A DNA stretch of 64,000 nt from Micavibrio aeruginosavorus EPB (GTDB lineage: Bacteria > Pseudomonadota > Alphaproteobacteria > Micavibrionales > Micavibrionaceae), in assembly GCF_000348745.1 (NCBI RefSeq), contig NC_020812.1, positions 1,373,444-1,437,443 of the forward strand, written 5' to 3'. This document shows positions 13,948 to 64,000 of this stretch, one piece after another. Below the pieces are notes generated by a model. The model did not search any database. It saw only the letters and a list, made by a program, of their open reading frames with translations, and was not told the origin of the DNA. Made by a program: the position numbers and the translations under genes. Every line of letters starts with the position of its first letter. Positions within the stretch are counted from its first letter, which is position 1.

Positions 13948-14511
13948 TTACGCCGCCTTCGCCTTTGCGGTCCCGCCAACATGGCTCAGGAACCGGTCCA
14001 CGAACCCTGTCAGGAACTTGGCCGTATCCGGGTTGCTGACATTGCCATCACTGTCGATCAGCCCTTCTTTAAAGGTCAGGTACAGCTCCGGCTGCGCCAT
14101 CATCGCCATATCCAGGAAACCGGCGGTGACAGACCGCAAATGCGCCTGCGCCACCGCGGTACCAATTGCACCCGGCGACGTGCCGCAAATGGCCCCCGGC
14201 TTGCCCGCGAACGAGTTTTTGCCATAAGGACGAGATGCCCAATCAATCGCGTTTTTCAGAACACCGGGGATAGAGCGGTTATATTCCGGGGTGATAAACA
14301 AAACCCCATCCGCGCCCTCAATCTCACTTTTCAGGCGCGTGACCGATGCCGGCACGTTGCCCTCCAGATCCTGGTTAAACAGCGGCAAATCATCAATCCG
14401 CACGTGAATCGCGCTAAAACGGCCCGCGCCCAGCTTTTCCAGTGCTTTGGCCAGTTTCAGATTGGACGAATCTTTACGAATGCTGCCGACGATAATCGCG
14501 ATTTTGGTCAT
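13948..14511 (-). CDS. NAD(P)H-dependent FMN reductase, ChrR/YieF family
   Basis: A 187-residue flavodoxin-fold oxidoreductase that reduces quinones, chromate or FMN with NAD(P)H; cytoplasmic. The phosphate-binding loop GSIRKDSSNLKLA near residue 9 and the TPEYNRSIPGVLKNAIDW signature near residues 75-92 are those of the ChrR/YieF/AZR group. A C-terminal Ala/Lys tail (TAKAKAA) is unstructured. It lies upstream of gcvT on the same strand, 137 bases away, and may be a separate unit. Substrate in vivo is unknown. Confidence 0.9.
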   Translation of the reverse strand: MTKIAIIVGSIRKDSSNLKLAKALEKLGAGRFSAIHVRIDDLPLFNQDLEGNVPASVTRLKSEIEGADGVLFITPEYNRSIPGVLKNAIDWASRPYGKNSFAGKPGAICGTSPGAIGTAVAQAHLRSVTAGFLDMAMMAQPELYLTFKEGLIDSDGNVSNPDTAKFLTGFVDRFLSHVGGTAKAKAA

Positions 14512-14806
14512 GGATGGCCCCCAAAGAATGAAAGAAAGGAATATTGGCGTTTGAATCTAAACCTTTTTTCCCCGATTTCCAGTCTGTAAATAAATGCATG
14601 CCCCGCAACAATTTACTTGTTTTCTGTAAATATTTGTGGTTAATAGCGGGCATTGAGTTCTGTAATAACTCTTCGTCCTGTCAGCCTTGTGACCAAAATC
14701 ATCAAGCGTGAACCAAAGAGTTTTACCAGCCACCTACCGGAAACGGACGGCTGGATACGAAACTCTTTATTTTAAAAACGACTTCTTGATAAAGGAAACT
14801 ACGACT

Positions 14807-15013
14807 ATGGCTACAGGTACCGTTAAATGGTTCAACACCACCAAAGGCTTCGGCTTCATTCAACCTGACCAAGGCGGCGCGGACGTTTTCGTTCACATCT
14901 CCGCTGTTCAACAGGCTGGCTGGTCCACCCTGAACGAAGGTCAAAAAGTAAGCTATGAGCTGGTGACAAGCCGCGGTAAAACCGCAGCCGCTGACCTGCG
15001 CGACGCAGCCTAA
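14807..15013 (+). CDS. cspA: Cold-shock protein, CspA family
   Basis: A 68-residue single cold-shock domain that binds single-stranded RNA/DNA and melts mRNA structure. RNP1 (KGFGFI) and RNP2 (DVFVHIS) are intact, with [10 protein letters not shown] at the N-terminus. The start is 14807 with AAAGGAAA upstream; the frame extends 33 codons further but lacks similarity. The 295-base gap before it (14512-14806) has no gene; AT-rich promoter-like sequence lies near 14600-14650 and the leader appears long, as in cold-regulated csp genes whose 5' UTR acts as a thermosensor. A helicase gene follows 137 bases downstream. Confidence 0.95.
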
Positions 15014-15038
15014 TCTTAGGCTAATCGACGACGTCCCT

Positions 15039-15150
15039 CTCTTTTTGTGTAGGGACCAACACGGTTAAATCTTCGACTGAAGAATAACAGGACCTTCTCC
15101 GGCACATGTCGTGCCGGAGGTGTTGGTCCCGACATACACGACAAAAAGAG
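15039..15150 (+). promoter_or_regulatory. Structured leader that can sequester the helicase ribosome-binding site
   Basis: Bases 15039-15048 pair perfectly with 15141-15150 (10 bp), and 15052-15062 pair with 15120-15130 (11 bp). Between them are a perfect 9-bp hairpin (15097-15105 with 15111-15119, loop ATGTC) and a smaller TCTTC/GAAGA hairpin at 15070-15083. The outermost strand contains the helicase Shine-Dalgarno region (AAAAAGAG) immediately before its ATGs. If folded, translation would be blocked. A thermo- or autoregulatory element is plausible. Confidence 0.65.
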
Positions 15151-17139
15151 ATGATGATGCAGAATTTCCATGAAATGGGTCTGCCAGACGCGCTCGTGCG
15201 CGCTCTGGACTATATGAAGTTTGAAACGCCGACGCCGATTCAGGCCCAGGCTATCCCCCTCGCCCTTGCTGGCAACGACATTCTGGGTTCCGCCCAGACA
15301 GGCACAGGTAAAACCGGTGCTTTCGCAATCCCAATCATTGCCAAACTGATCGAGTTCCCGGAGTCGGGCGCGTTGATCATGACGCCGACTCGCGAACTGG
15401 CTGTTCAGGTTGCTGACATCGTCCGCAAAATGCTGGGCTCCCAACCGACGATGACGCTGGCCGTTCTGATCGGTGGCGAACCGATGGACAAACAAATGCG
15501 CCAATTGCGCACCCACCCGCGCATCATTATCGGCACACCGGGCCGTATCAATGACCACCTGCAACGCGGCACCGTGAATTTTGAAAAATCCAACTTCCTG
15601 GTTCTGGATGAAACCGACCGGATGCTGGACATGGGCTTTGGCATCCAGATCGAAAAGATCATCCGGACCATGCCGAAAGAACGCCAGACCATGATGTTCT
15701 CGGCCACCATTCCGCCGTACATCAGTAAGCTGTCGGCCCAATATCTGAAAAACCCGCAGCGTATTTCGATTGGCGAAGAGTCAACCGCAGCGCCGAAGAT
15801 TAAACAGGAACTGGTTCACACCAACCACTCCGAAAAATACAATGCGCTGGTTGGGCAACTGGATCAACGCGAAGGGTCCGTAATCATTTTCGTGAAAACG
15901 AAACATGGTGCCGACCGTTTGGCCCGTAAACTGACCCAGGATGATTTCCGGTCCGAAGCCCTGCACGGTGACTTGCGCCAGAACAAGCGTGACCGCGTGA
16001 TCCGCAGCTTCCGCGACAAGAAATACCGTATCCTGGTTGCCACCGACGTGGCCGCCCGCGGCCTGGATATTCCGCACATCGAACACGTCGTCAACTACGA
16101 CCTGCCCCAATGTGCAGAAGACTACATCCACCGTATCGGTCGTACGGGCCGCGCCGGTGCCGAAGGCAACGCCGTATGCCTGCTGACATCCGAAGATGGC
16201 GGCAAGTGGAAAGCTATTCACAAGCTGATGAACCCGCCTGCCAATGGCGACAAGCACGAAGCCCGCGATGAAAATGGCGGTCGCCCGTCATTCGGACGCA
16301 AATCCGGCGGCTTTAAGCAAGGCGGATTCAAGCGTGATGGTTTCAAACGTGATGGATTCAGAAAAGAAGAAGGTGGCCGCGATGGTTACAAAAAAGAAGG
16401 CTTCAAACCGCGCCGTGATTTTGACGACCGCCCACGGCAAGACCGTCCTCGGAGCGAACGGCCGTTCGGCGACCGTCCGTTCAACAACGACCGTCCCCGT
16501 GGTGATCGCCCGTTCAATGATCGTCCCCGCGAAGATCGTCCCCGTCAAGATCGTCAGGGCCGCGATTATAACGACCGCCCGTCTTTCCGCGATGGTCGCG
16601 GCGGCGATCGGCCGTTCCAAAAGCGTGACGACGACCGTGGGAACCGTTTCAATCGTGACGAGCGCCCGAACACATGGAAAAAAGACCGCCCGTACAGCAA
16701 CGACCGGTCCTTCGATGAACAGCGCCCCCGCCGTGATTTTGCGGACCGCCCGCAAAACAACGAACGCGGAACCCGCCCGTTCAATGACCGCCCCCGCGAC
16801 GATCGTCCGCGCGAAGACCGCCCACGTCGCGAATTCTCCGACCGCCCGCGTCAAGATGCCGCGCCGCGCCGGAACGACGATTCCTTCGGCAACCGCAAAC
16901 CAAAATTCCAAGGTGACCGTGACGGAAACCGTCCGGAGCGCGGAAACCGTGACGCGGACGGCAATCGCCGCGATTTTGCCAAGCGTGATGGTGACCGCCC
17001 GTTCGGTCGCCGCCCGGGCGGCAATGGCGGAAACGGCAGCGGAAAGCCTGCGGGCCGACCAATGGGCGGCCAACGCCCGGCTGAGGGCGGAAAAGTGCGC
17101 ACCGCATCCAGCAGCGGAAAACGCTATTACTCTGCATAA
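15151..17139 (+). CDS. DEAD-box RNA helicase with long Arg-rich tail
   Basis: ATP-dependent RNA helicase, probably for mRNA decay or ribosome assembly in the cold, given cspA upstream. All core motifs are seen: Q motif (PTPIQAQAIPLAL), I (AQTGTGKT), Ia (PTRELAVQ), TPGRI, III (SATIP), V (ATDVAARGLD) and VI (YIHRIGRTGRAG). Motif II is DETD (residues 153-156) instead of DEAD. The core ends near residue 375, and about 285 residues of low-complexity Arg/Asp/Gly/Phe sequence follow (DRPRxDRPF-type repeats, RGG-like pieces), predicted to be disordered and RNA-binding. Three ATGs in a row start at 15151; 15157 gives the best spacing to AAGAG. The product is 662 residues. Confidence 0.93.
   Translation: MMMQNFHEMGLPDALVRALDYMKFETPTPIQAQAIPLALAGNDILGSAQTGTGKTGAFAIPIIAKLIEFPESGALIMTPTRELAVQVADIVRKMLGSQPTMTLAVLIGGEPMDKQMRQLRTHPRIIIGTPGRINDHLQRGTVNFEKSNFLVLDETDRMLDMGFGIQIEKIIRTMPKERQTMMFSATIPPYISKLSAQYLKNPQRISIGEESTAAPKIKQELVHTNHSEKYNALVGQLDQREGSVIIFVKTKHGADRLARKLTQDDFRSEALHGDLRQNKRDRVIRSFRDKKYRILVATDVAARGLDIPHIEHVVNYDLPQCAEDYIHRIGRTGRAGAEGNAVCLLTSEDGGKWKAIHKLMNPPANGDKHEARDENGGRPSFGRKSGGFKQGGFKRDGFKRDGFRKEEGGRDGYKKEGFKPRRDFDDRPRQDRPRSERPFGDRPFNNDRPRGDRPFNDRPREDRPRQDRQGRDYNDRPSFRDGRGGDRPFQKRDDDRGNRFNRDERPNTWKKDRPYSNDRSFDEQRPRRDFADRPQNNERGTRPFNDRPRDDRPREDRPRREFSDRPRQDAAPRRNDDSFGNRKPKFQGDRDGNRPERGNRDADGNRRDFAKRDGDRPFGRRPGGNGGNGSGKPAGRPMGGQRPAEGGKVRTASSSGKRYYSA
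16405..16860 (+). repeat. Degenerate repeats encoding DRPR/DRPF units
   Basis: Many imperfect copies of a GACCGTCC-type unit encode Asp-Arg-Pro-Arg/Phe repeats in the helicase tail. The same repetitive, Arg-rich composition keeps other frames open on both strands, which explains several long shadow frames here. Confidence 0.7.
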
Positions 17140-35918: not shown

Positions 35919-37145
35919 TTAATCCAGCCCGTACGCCGTATGCAGGGCGCGGATGGCCAATTCGGTGTAATCTTCGGAAATCAGAACGCTGATTTTGATC
36001 TCCGACGTGGAAATGGCCTGAATATTGATGCCCTTCTCCGCCAGCGCCGCGAACATGGTCTGGGCCACGCCAGCGTGGCTTTTCATACCGATGCCGACAA
36101 CCGATACTTTTGCCACGCGGGCGTCGGTGTGGATTTTCAGATCTTTCAACGACGCCACGTTTTTCAACGTTTCCAGCGCACGATCCAGATCGGCGCGCGT
36201 CACGGTAAACGTCATGTCGGTCAGCTTGCCATCATGCGACACGTTCTGCACGATCATGTCGACATTGATGTTGGCGTTGCTCAACGGACCGAAGACCGAG
36301 GCCGCAATGCCCGGAATATCCGGCACGTTGATGAGGGTGATTTTCGCTTCATCGCGGCTGTAGGTAATGCCGTTGACGATATGCTGTTCCACGATGTCTT
36401 CCTCTCTGGTGACAAGGGTTCCGGGCAGATCACTGCCGATCGACGGTTCAAAGGTGGACAACACCTGAACCGGAACATTCTGTTTCATCGCCATTTCGAC
36501 GGAGCGTGTTTGCAACACCTTCGCCCCCAATGACGCCATTTCAACCATTTCTTCGTATGACACGCGCGCCAGTTTGCGGGCGTTGGGCACGATGCGCGGA
36601 TCGGTCGTGTACACGCCGTTCACATCGGTATAGATATCGCACCGATCCGCCTTCAACGCGGCGGCCAGCGCCACGGCGGTCGTATCGGACCCGCCACGGC
36701 CCAACGTGGAAATGCGGTTCATGGGCGTTACGCCCTGAAACCCGGCCAGTACGGCAACTTCGCCCGCGCTCAGGCGTTTATCAAATTCAGCGGTGCGGAT
36801 TTCTTCGATCCGGGCCTTGCCATGCATGTCGTTGGTGACCAGCGGCACCTGCCACCCTTGCCACGACCGCGCCATGACCCCGCGTTTTTGCAAAGCCAGC
36901 GCCATCAGCCCTGCGGTAATGTTTTCACCGCTGGACACGACCGCATCATATTCCCGCGCATCGTGCAGCGGGCTGATACCCCGACAATAATCAACCAGTT
37001 GATTTGTAACCCCGGCCATGGCGGACACAACCACCGCCACCTGATGCCCGCGCGCGACCTCGGCCACCACTTTTTCGGCGGCGTTTTCAATCTGGGGGAT
37101 ACCGGCAACGGACGTACCCCCGAATTTCAGGACAAGGCGGGCCAT
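35919..37145 (-). CDS. lysC: Aspartate kinase
   Basis: Phosphorylates aspartate, the first step to DAP, lysine, threonine and methionine. It has 408 residues: the N-terminal kinase signature KFGGTSVAG, the catalytic region LGRGGSDTTAVALAAAL, and two C-terminal ACT domains (from about residue 265) typical of feedback-regulated isoforms (VPDIPGIAASVFGPLSNANI; VGIGMKSHAGVAQTMFAAL). A promoter overlapping that of ubiG lies just upstream. It supplies the DAP branch, completed here by lysA. Confidence 0.96.
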   Translation of the reverse strand: MARLVLKFGGTSVAGIPQIENAAEKVVAEVARGHQVAVVVSAMAGVTNQLVDYCRGISPLHDAREYDAVVSSGENITAGLMALALQKRGVMARSWQGWQVPLVTNDMHGKARIEEIRTAEFDKRLSAGEVAVLAGFQGVTPMNRISTLGRGGSDTTAVALAAALKADRCDIYTDVNGVYTTDPRIVPNARKLARVSYEEMVEMASLGAKVLQTRSVEMAMKQNVPVQVLSTFEPSIGSDLPGTLVTREEDIVEQHIVNGITYSRDEAKITLINVPDIPGIAASVFGPLSNANINVDMIVQNVSHDGKLTDMTFTVTRADLDRALETLKNVASLKDLKIHTDARVAKVSVVGIGMKSHAGVAQTMFAALAEKGINIQAISTSEIKISVLISEDYTELAIRALHTAYGLD

Positions 37146-61808: not shown

Positions 61809-63629
61809 ATGATCATCTCGCGAACATTGAAAATTTTCATGCTGGGCGTTGCGGCAATGACCGTCATGGCGGTGCCCGCTTTCGCGAATGACCGCATGGC
61901 CGGAACGCAGGGCGGTACCAACCGCCCCGCGCCGGTCAAAACAGAAAAGCCAGAGACCGAAACCGCGAAAAAGCAGGATCAGGCCCAGACCGTCAAATTC
62001 ACGCCACCGGCAACGTCGTTGCCAAAGTTCAGCTATAAGGTGCTGGAAAGTTACGGCACGCTCAGCGACCCGCTGGGCCCCACGCTGGGCGTTGATATGT
62101 GGGCGGGATCGTCACGATCCACCATCGTCAAGGAAATCCCCAACCTGCCCAATGGCCACACCGTGGCCACGATGCAGGATATGACGTTACGCCTGTTACT
62201 GACACAGGCCGACAGCACGTTTATTCGCGCCGATGTTGCCCCGGAAAAGGGCAACGACCTGATGACGTTGCGCCTGCAAAAGCTGCTGGATATTGGCGCG
62301 TATAAATCGGCGATGGATTTATATACACAGATTGCGGGCGAGCCTTATCACGAAAAACTGGCCCGCGCGGGCATTACCGCCATGCTGTATAATGGCGAGA
62401 CGGGCTTGGCCTGCCTTGAATTTCGCGCCGTCCAAAAACGCATGATGGACAACCCCGACGACATGTCCGCCGATGACATGACGTGGTGGACCGCCATGGC
62501 CCCGATTTGTGACGCCATTCAGGCCCGCATGATCAACCCAAAGGCCGATGATTTCAAAATTGATGAAGCCGCATTGGGTGAGAGCAAAATTCTCAATCAA
62601 TTGCTCTCCCGCAAAGATTTCAAACTGGGCATCAGCGACGTTGAAGATTTCGCCGCACTGAATGGCCTTGAGCGTTCCGTTCTGGCAGGCCTGCGCCGTT
62701 ATGATTTCAACCGCCTGAAACTGCGCGATGTGGGTGCGGTGGATGGTTCCGTTTTGATGATTATGGTCGAAGACCCGACAATGCCGGCCCGCCTGCGCGC
62801 ACCGCTGATGGTTGAGACCCTGCACCGCGGGTTGGTCCACACGGACCGCCTGATCGCATTGTACGAGGACACAGCCGTCGACAGCGGATCGCTGGGCGAT
62901 GTCGCCCAATCGTGGCGGTCATTAAAAGACGCATCCAAAGCCACGCTGGATTCAAGCCTGCCTGGCCTGATGAATTTTGACACCCGCACACCCATGGCCG
63001 CCTACTATCCGTTTGCCGAGGCGTTAAGCAAGGCCAGCCCGGAGGGCTTCTCTGGCCGGGCGCTGGATAACGGCCTGCGAGTCATGATGTTGGCCGGAGT
63101 AACCCCGCCGGAACGCTGGGTTAAGGCCTGGAATGCCCGCGAATCAGTGTCCGAATCACCCTCCACCGAATCATATGAATTGGGGGCCGGAATTGCCGTT
63201 TTGGGAAATAATTCACGCCTTTTGGATATTTTTAATAGTGACGCCGCCAAGGCCCATTTCGCCACCCCGGAAAGCCAAAAAGACAAGGAAATCCTTGCTG
63301 TTTTTAGTGGACTTGGGCTGGAAAATGTATTACATAACACGGACAACTCCGATGCTTATGAAAAATTGTTTGACTTGACAGCCCCTAACGATTATGTAAT
63401 GCCGTTAGGTGGCTTGTTAGAACAGCTCGGCAGAGCCGCCGAAGATCAGCGGCTTGGTGAGACAGTACTGCTAGCCTCTGTGATCCTGAACGATATGGCC
63501 CGGGCCCCGGACAAGGTCCACCCCGGCGTTATCCGCGAGGTTCTCAGAAGTTTAGTAACAGTGGGGTTCAAAAAAGAAGCACATGATCTGGCTCTTGCAG
63601 TCATTCTGGGCTTAGACGAATTAAAATAG
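61809..63629 (+). CDS. Large exported protein of unknown function, before xerD
   Basis: A 606-residue protein with a signal peptide (FMLGVAAMTVMAVPAFA) and a Lys/Gln/Pro-rich linker (residues 40-65). The rest is alpha-helical with helical-repeat character (LQKLLDIGAYKSAMDLYTQI; LARAGITAMLYNGETGLACL). No family recognised. It follows the 43-residue peptide by 24 bases and precedes xerD by 13. From about 63190 the base and codon style becomes more AT-rich than the first two-thirds. Confidence 0.75.
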   Translation: MIISRTLKIFMLGVAAMTVMAVPAFANDRMAGTQGGTNRPAPVKTEKPETETAKKQDQAQTVKFTPPATSLPKFSYKVLESYGTLSDPLGPTLGVDMWAGSSRSTIVKEIPNLPNGHTVATMQDMTLRLLLTQADSTFIRADVAPEKGNDLMTLRLQKLLDIGAYKSAMDLYTQIAGEPYHEKLARAGITAMLYNGETGLACLEFRAVQKRMMDNPDDMSADDMTWWTAMAPICDAIQARMINPKADDFKIDEAALGESKILNQLLSRKDFKLGISDVEDFAALNGLERSVLAGLRRYDFNRLKLRDVGAVDGSVLMIMVEDPTMPARLRAPLMVETLHRGLVHTDRLIALYEDTAVDSGSLGDVAQSWRSLKDASKATLDSSLPGLMNFDTRTPMAAYYPFAEALSKASPEGFSGRALDNGLRVMMLAGVTPPERWVKAWNARESVSESPSTESYELGAGIAVLGNNSRLLDIFNSDAAKAHFATPESQKDKEILAVFSGLGLENVLHNTDNSDAYEKLFDLTAPNDYVMPLGGLLEQLGRAAEDQRLGETVLLASVILNDMARAPDKVHPGVIREVLRSLVTVGFKKEAHDLALAVILGLDELK

Positions 63630-63642
63630 GAGATATATTAAA

Positions 63643-64000
63643 ATGGCTCGTCCTGGTCGTCCGGCAATGCCGAAACCGAAACTTCACCCGCTCGTGGACT
63701 CGTTCCTCGACATGCTCACGACTGAGCGCGGGGCCGCAATGAACACACGCCAGGCCTACTGGCGCGATCTGGCTGACTTCAGCCTGTATCTGCGCGACAA
63801 AGCCAGCAAAGAGATCGTCGATGCCAGCAACGACGAAATCAAATCCTATTTGAGAGACCTCGGTGACAAGATGCACGTGAAGGGCCAGAACACGGCTCAG
63901 ATCGCAACCCGTACGGTTGCCCGTCGCCTGTCCGCCCTGCGCCAGTTCTACCGCTATCTGGTATCGGAAAACATCCGCAAGGATGACCCGACCTCCGCGA
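63643..64000 (+). CDS. xerD: Tyrosine recombinase XerD, 3'-truncated by window edge
   Basis: The first 119 codons are present and open to the window end. The N-terminal SAM-like DNA-binding domain is seen: VDSFLDMLTTERGAAMNTRQ, AYWRDLADFSLYL, and TRTVARRLSALRQFYRYLVS, then KDDPTSA, as in XerC/XerD. The catalytic Arg/His/Tyr part lies outside. AGGAG stands about ten bases before the ATG. XerD with XerC resolves chromosome dimers at dif. The neighbouring aroK/aroB supports XerD rather than XerC. Confidence 0.85.
   Translation, partial: MARPGRPAMPKPKLHPLVDSFLDMLTTERGAAMNTRQAYWRDLADFSLYLRDKASKEIVDASNDEIKSYLRDLGDKMHVKGQNTAQIATRTVARRLSALRQFYRYLVSENIRKDDPTSA

Follow-up and report, generated by a model that had tools for sequence, protein, structure and literature searches.

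A nested RNA structure predicted to bury the ribosome-binding site of a DEAD-box helicase behind cspA in Micavibrio, and a leader RNA before the same operon in its relatives

The gap between a cspA-like gene and a DEAD-box RNA helicase gene of Micavibrio aeruginosavorus EPB contains two nested long-range helices, which are predicted to close the Shine-Dalgarno (SD) region of the helicase. The gap structure is real and unusually strong; it is confined to two genomes, and we infer its function. The gap RNA may act as an intercistronic translational brake on the helicase, which is the favored reading and is given about an even chance here. A leader RNA (R1), located before the first gene of the operon in relatives, is a better supported new element than the lock in the gap. 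The window, i.e., the whole stretch of DNA under analysis, comprises 64,000 nt within a single-contig genome of 2,458,610 bases.

The gene pair and the fold of the gap

The two genes and the elements of the gap between them are as follows.

14807–15013, + strand: cspA-like cold-shock domain protein, first gene of the pair (ORF; Pfam CSD, E 2.4e-25)
15151–17139, + strand: DEAD-box RNA helicase (Pfam DEAD 1.4e-47, Helicase_C 5e-33; ORF 15106–17139)
15038–15048, + strand: left arm of the outer helix, TCTCTTTTTGT, 100% complementary to 15141–15151 over 11 nt
15141–15151, + strand: right arm of the outer helix, ACAAAAAGAGA, containing the SD region of the helicase (complementarity, fold)
15052–15062, + strand: left arm of the inner helix, GGGACCAACAC (complementarity, fold)
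15120–15130, + strand: right arm of the inner helix, GTGTTGGTCCC (complementarity, fold)
15070–15083, + strand: inner hairpin 1, 5-bp stem 15070–15074/15079–15083 (fold)
15097–15119, + strand: inner hairpin 2, 9-bp stem 15097–15105/15111–15119, with the in-frame ATG 15106 in its loop (complementarity, ORF)
15033–15057, + strand: early hairpin GTCCCT/AGGGAC in shorter transcripts (folds of transcript prefixes)

The choice among the three adjacent ATGs from which the helicase could start (15151, 15154, or 15157) is uncertain, and its reading frame is open back to the in-frame ATG at 15106. The homologues of the helicase often have the N-terminus MxNF, which favors the start at 15157; with this start, the GAG at 15148–15150 is the SD, located 6 nt upstream. 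Beyond the Pfam domains, the helicase carries a long C-terminal tail (16271–17139) that is rich in Arg, Asp, Gly, and Pro and contains DRPR-like repeats. CSD matches fall at three sites in the genome: 306528, 1388250 (the cspA of the window), and 2245000 (two matches). As these matches stand in the same order, we infer that the cspA of the window probably corresponds to GMV1414.

The original prediction described two perfect long-range helices of 10 and 11 bp, which join the 3′ region of cspA to the bases before the helicase start and enclose two hairpins. The complementarity listing and the fold recover two perfect nested helices, each of them 11 bp long, and the length of 10 bp does not hold. 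Both arms are located within the gap, past the cspA stop at 15013, instead of in the cspA 3′ region, and the left arm begins 24 nt past that stop. The two inner hairpins are present in the fold. In full, the inner complementarity extends over 15048–15062/15120–15134 (15 nt, 93%), with the perfect 11-bp core at 15052–15062/15120–15130. Both arms together form a near-perfect inverted repeat of 25 nt, the right side of which contains two small insertions. A mobile or repeated element has a similar look; the gap element is no dispersed repeat, since its own genome contains a single copy at E 0.001, and this candidate was rejected.

The fold of 15014–15200 has an energy of −73.7 kcal/mol (z −5.3), and none of 200 shuffles is as low. 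A nested pair of perfect 10-bp helices occurs in none of 5,000 dinucleotide shuffles and a single such helix in 54; the formation of the gap helices by chance is unlikely. From 30 °C upward, the minimum-energy structure retains 7 of the 11 outer pairs (15038–15044/15145–15151), and the next bases of the left arm re-pair with 15135–15141; at 25 °C and lower, the outer helix remains longer. The early hairpin at 15033–15057 is predicted to have to open before the inner helix can form. The folds of transcript prefixes suggest that it would arise first and give way once the right arm of the inner helix is transcribed.

Accessibility of the helicase ribosome-binding site

The pairing of the helicase SD region by the outer helix, which had been anticipated, is recovered in both the predicted fold and the unpaired probabilities. 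At none of the six temperatures modeled between 10 and 50 °C does the predicted unpaired probability of 15145–15151 exceed 0.11. The predicted cost of opening 15143–15159 falls from 16.1 kcal/mol at 10 °C to 13.3 at 25 °C and 11.2 at 37 °C. Such closure is rare within the window, not unique: among 52 ORFs, with starts chosen by script and the helicase ORF itself possibly included, two have the SD region as closed and three have a fold as stable.

Intercistronic SD-sequestering structures are a known feature of operon mRNAs, in which the SD of the downstream gene is paired in the gap and its translation is lowered. The gap of the window is alike in this pairing, as the SD is predicted to pair with a segment further upstream in its own mRNA; its helices differ in being nested and long-range and in lying 24 nt past the cspA stop. 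If the gap RNA acts as a brake, it would fold into one nested structure burying the helicase ribosome-binding site. A ribosome finishing cspA would halt about 24 nt short of the left arm and leave the helix unopened, and with the left arm still paired, helicase output would be low relative to cspA. The brake would be released by removal of the left arm through a cut within the gap, or alternatively by CspA, the helicase, or another RNA chaperone holding the left arm away, not by warming. The formation of the fold in the cell, the lowering of translation, and every releasing factor belong to this model. If it is true, the lock sets the ratio of RNA chaperone to RNA helicase within a single transcript, and CspA as well as the helicase could open it.

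The loss of the left arm through an internal transcription start had been named as a challenge to the structure, and the folds of shortened RNAs agree that it matters. In RNAs starting at 15050, 15064, 15090, or 15106, the predicted openness of 15143–15153 is 0.65–0.73, compared with 0.19 in the RNA from 15014; most of the SD region is thus predicted to be free once the RNA starts at 15050 or beyond. This release, together with the helices and the predicted SD closure, is a computed result. The GAG at 15148–15150 is open at 0.33–0.44 in the same four RNAs versus 0.00 from 15014, and this incomplete opening even without the left arm counts against the brake.

The same RNAs are relevant to another reading, in which the helicase is translated from the in-frame ATG at 15106 or from gap-internal RNAs and the long-range helices exert no control. 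The ORF is indeed open from 15106, and a start there would place the helix within the coding region, a further point against the brake; RNAs from 15050 or later also leave most of the SD region open. This reading is nevertheless unlikely, as ATG 15106 sits in the loop of a 9-bp hairpin and the MxNF with which homologues often begin matches 15157. A promoter scan of 14500–15300, covering the sigma-70 consensus, found no site either; with shuffles averaging merely 0.7, i.e., fewer than one site expected by chance, the lack of a match says little.

A temperature-responsive switch had also been suggested, in which the fold opens with warmth or rearranges in the cold and thereby controls helicase translation. 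Both genes belong to families that include cold-shock members, which fits such control. One passage on Caulobacter rhlE likewise describes a translational fusion carrying the 5′ UTR that rises at 10 °C (PMC5472812). The predicted folds at six temperatures do not support the suggestion: the SD is predicted to be paired from 10 to 50 °C, and the gap fold is therefore no simple thermometer. No melting in the growth range, as in ROSE- or fourU-like RNA thermometers with a heat-opened SD, is predicted. The opening cost is higher at 10 °C than at 37 °C, and the cold would thus tighten the fold. At gathering scores, the window contains no match to the RNA thermometer families of Rfam or to any other Rfam family, in line with the view that no known named riboregulator is present. 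In addition, a passage of the ARL-13 paper describes cold-shock genes that switch with growth phase without exposure to cold, and growth-phase control of cspA and the helicase fits at least as well as cold control. A temperature switch is, on these grounds, very improbable.

Conservation of the gap and the gaps of relatives

A search of 58 genomes with a 157-nt gap query matched two of them, one being the own genome. The sister genome (G002; 2,481,983 bases) is the sole other genome with an alignable gap, which differs by two 1-nt indels that lie outside the helices and is free of substitutions. The identity between the window and the sister genome is 89.4% over 58,760 aligned bases; in the helicase core it is 92.5%, and 80% at third codon positions. 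A gap free of substitutions beside third positions of such identity speaks for the brake, as do the helices and a fold strength beyond chance. The gap is part of a longer conserved stretch.

14584–15203, + strand: near-identical block of about 620 nt, with one substitution (14875) and two 1-nt indels relative to the sister genome (alignment)

Since the near-identity includes cspA and its leader, and ordinary coding genes show the same, recombination is possible for this block, which may be a recombination tract rather than the result of selection on the fold. Recombination between lineages explains the near-identity as well as selection does, and the use of conservation as proof of selection is weakened by the near-identical stretches in ordinary genes. 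Two of the other long identical runs were inspected, and these almost identical stretches may be recombination tracts. One (36301–36557) lies within an aspartokinase-like ORF, a label taken from reading the translation; the other (63354–63698) covers the end of the unannotated ORF 61809–63629 and the next 69 bases.

For comparison with relatives, 92 helicase loci were kept at a helicase identity of at least 54%, and lower ones were dropped (among others L127, L129, L131, L137, and all of L069–L106). A cspA gene lies less than 900 nt upstream in 29 of the 92. Eighteen loci with a cspA–helicase gap of at most 160 nt were folded, among which L002 and L003 are near-identical and L050 and L053 are the same gap. 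The SD region is unpaired at 37 °C with a probability of 0.16 in the two Micavibrio genomes versus 0.31–0.95 in the other 16 gaps. The SD lock is seen in two close relatives only, and the open SD region of the same gene pair elsewhere argues against the brake. Twelve of the 18 gaps, mostly of different sequence, are more stable than shuffles (z −2.5 or lower); the remaining six are not distinct from shuffles, four of those being merely 27–31 nt long. Because 12 gaps are stable while the SD region is mostly open, a gap hairpin is commoner than SD burial: the hairpin is common, the burial is not, and neither is essential.

Stable gaps with a mostly open SD region favor the main rival to the brake. 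According to it, the gap is mainly a processing or stabilizing element that guards the 3′ end of the abundant cspA mRNA, and the burial of the SD is a by-product; a cut, e.g., by RNase III or RNase E, would further part cspA from the helicase. The predicted freeing of most of the SD region upon removal of the left arm would suit such a cut. The six gaps that resemble shuffles, in contrast, mean that a processing function is not required, and this explanation is regarded as possible, if doubtful.

A T-rich tail behind a stem was flagged in five of the 18 gaps, all of them in relatives (L005, L015, L042, L068, and L124), and L042 and L068 look classical by eye. The CspA protein of E. coli is capable of antitermination. 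These points would suit a partial intrinsic terminator between cspA and the helicase, with readthrough possibly aided by CspA. Such a terminator is highly improbable in the window, where 14500–15300 contains no terminator-like site, i.e., no G+C-rich hairpin followed by a T run (shuffles average 1.1), and no T run stands behind the gap stems; it was rejected as a candidate for the gap. It is more likely that operon-wide regulation sits in the leader of the first gene, the place of the covariation-supported RNA of the relatives.

The R1 leader RNA and the leader of the window

In relatives, a shared leader precedes whichever gene opens the operon, i.e., cspA where present and otherwise the helicase. 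Ninety leaders were extracted; a loose motif retained 59 of them and a stricter motif 46. From these 46, 32 were picked by eye for a visible P1–P2–P3 layout, and 30 of them form alignment A1 (L110 and L117 were left out for their long insertions). In A1, P1 (GAGCTT/AAGTTC) encloses the hairpins P2 and P3. Examples found with the R1 model are:

L047, 1042–1111: R1
L015, 1043–1111: R1
L018, 1315–1389: R1

In A1, 30 cells are changed on both sides of a pair compared with 9.9 in shuffles (0 of 500 reach 30), and 85.9% of cells pair versus at most 53.9% in slid controls, figures that are biased upward for P1, P2, and P3 because the rows were picked by eye. Of 500 shuffles, 43 reached the number of pairs changed on both sides and 455 the number of further pair types; RNAalifold alone on A1 gives P2 only. 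Alignment A2, a realignment of 51 hits among 85 sources (49 distinct rows) that is fitted to the model and hence leans towards it, has 65 cells changed on both sides versus 18.4 in shuffles, 10 such pairs versus 7.3 (6/500), and 28 further pair types versus 21.3 (0/500). Twelve hits outside A1, unused in model building, form A3, which is fitted to the model with the same leaning. It contains 12 such cells versus 5.2 in shuffles (0/500) and 6 pairs versus 3.6 (19/500), with 86.7% of cells paired versus at most 57.2% in slid controls; its further pair types equal the shuffles (13 versus 12.9; 318/500). In A3, compensatory changes occur at five of the six pairs of P2 and at one of the four pairs of P3. 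Thus, the P2 hairpin is well supported and the P3 hairpin, with 63–69% of cells paired, weakly supported, while conservation, and only conservation, argues for the hardly variable P1.

For the 78-nt cores of all 46 leaders, the gain in stability over shuffles is only slight: the mean z is −1.18, and 10 of the 46 cores reach −2 or lower, with averages of −1.42 for the 32 picked and −0.61 for the 14 unpicked. The duplex energy of R1 segment C with segment D near the SD gave a weak result, with p 0.05 or lower in 5 of 43 leaders (median p 0.35). In a narrower test, a C:D complement of at least 6 nt is present in 21 of 43 versus 7.3 expected, and A:B complements occur in 29 of 43 versus 19.1; these C:D and A:B counts are suggestive only, as the test was devised afterwards and the sequences are related.

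The R1 model yields 53 hits in 49 of 104 genomes of the family (E 0.01; filters may lose weak matches), and all of them precede csp, the helicase or, once, another gene ahead of the helicase. Forty-four hits, many of them training loci, share the strand of the helicase and lie 27–1,108 nt ahead of it. The other nine, none of which was used in training, comprise six before csp (L165, L167–L171), two before the helicase (L166, L172), and L173, where R1 precedes another gene and the helicase follows about 850 nt further on. Within the order, R1 occurs in 50 of 142 genomes, the sole addition being G054, where it precedes the helicase. An evenly drawn class sample gives 4 of 385 genomes, two within the family and two sharing the class only (G173, G375), with R1 directly before the helicase. 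R1 thus occurs in the bacterial family of the window and in a few other Alphaproteobacteria. An ORF of about 147–185 aa with a DLVILKPEM-like motif was observed downstream of csp or the leader in L165, L169, L171, and L173, being located between leader and helicase in L173; the csp–helicase gaps of 596–790 nt in L036, L037, and L045 could fit an ORF of this type.

In the Alphaproteobacteria, long cold-shock leaders are known and, in our judgment, seldom defined by covariation. In 12 relatives scanned at gathering scores, no Rfam release 15 family matches R1, and two tRNAs are the only matches. The E. coli cspA thermosensor (RF01766; gathering score 78 bits) is alike in being a structured leader with alternative folds before a cold-shock gene, and it has no gathering-score match in the window or the 12 relatives. 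The CspA of E. coli promotes the translation of the less accessible conformer of its own mRNA (PMC9947658). With a lax threshold applied to four loci, the only relevant matches were sub-threshold ones to RF01766 that take in the cspA coding region, in L141, the window's locus (35 bits, E 5e-6), and in L047 (24.1 bits). The L141 match at 1455–1755 corresponds to 14761–15061 of the window, essentially the cspA coding region with short flanks. Unlike this leader, the gap structure lies behind cspA. A passage on Caulobacter crescentus, likewise an alphaproteobacterium, gives the cold-shock DEAD-box helicase gene rhlE a 5′ UTR of 186 nt with predicted structure (PMC5472812). Its leader lies before the helicase rather than in a cspA–helicase gap, and that passage mentions no nested helix burying the SD (PMC5472812). 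The Caulobacter cspA and cspB leaders ("upstream box", attenuation) are likewise cold-shock leaders that are controlled after transcription has started (as described in PMC5472812); the four class-sample matches of R1 (n = 385) all precede the helicase. A literature search, covering open-licence papers, returned two Caulobacter papers and none that combined all the terms. As a cis-regulatory RNA located before csp and DEAD-box helicase genes, R1 is a candidate open to testing, with no Rfam match at gathering scores in the loci scanned.

The leader of the window's own cspA contains four segments.

14655–14659, + strand: segment A, GAGTT, pairs with B or, in the alternative fold, D
14667–14673, + strand: segment B, AACTCTT, pairs with A or C
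14715–14723, + strand: segment C, AAAGAGTTT, pairs with D or B
14760–14768, + strand: segment D, AAACTCTTT, pairs with C or A

This leader (14650–14806) can adopt either of two folds, which lie no more than 2.5 kcal/mol apart at 37 °C. The minimum consists of A:B and C:D (−37.0 kcal/mol), and with B:C forced the energy is −34.5, A then pairing with D; at 10 °C the values are −63.7 and −57.6, respectively. Seven Watson-Crick pairs are possible between B (14667–14673) and C (14716–14722), which are absent from the minimum-energy fold. The four-segment chain occurs in 3 of 5,000 shuffles, by a definition written after the chain had been seen. The R1 model has no match in the own genome, the best score in 14500–15200 with filters off being 4.7 bits (E 0.88), and the model gives no support for homology of the window's leader to R1. 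In blastn, the leader of the csp paralogue in the same genome has no match to the window's cspA leader. The design is similar, as the leader precedes the first gene of the operon and B can pair with C, with different letters, and it is possibly the same device as R1, similar in design only. The B:C design CTCTT..AAGAGT is found in 7 of 41 R1-negative leaders versus 0.22 expected, a pattern written post hoc after most hits had been seen, with the near-identical L002 and L003 counted separately.

A wider reading would combine two RNA switches. The first would be a bistable leader (A:B/C:D or B:C/A:D), a diverged relative of R1, which would here stand for a class of three-way-junction cold-shock leaders without an Rfam match; the second would be the lock that buries the helicase SD. 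CspA produced under the leader switch would assist in opening this lock, tying the dosage of chaperone and helicase to the growth phase in a predatory bacterium. This combined reading is speculative and rather improbable.

A possible cspA promoter was seen by eye at 14617–14645 (TTGTTT, 17 nt, TTAATA), below the scan thresholds; transcription would then start near 14652, with a leader of about 155 nt. Roughly 70 nt ahead of R1, the leaders of L018, L047, and L048 contain a promoter-like TTGACA ... CTGTCAT, the ends of which approximate an inverted repeat. This element is, by eye, common to many leaders and could be a promoter with an operator.
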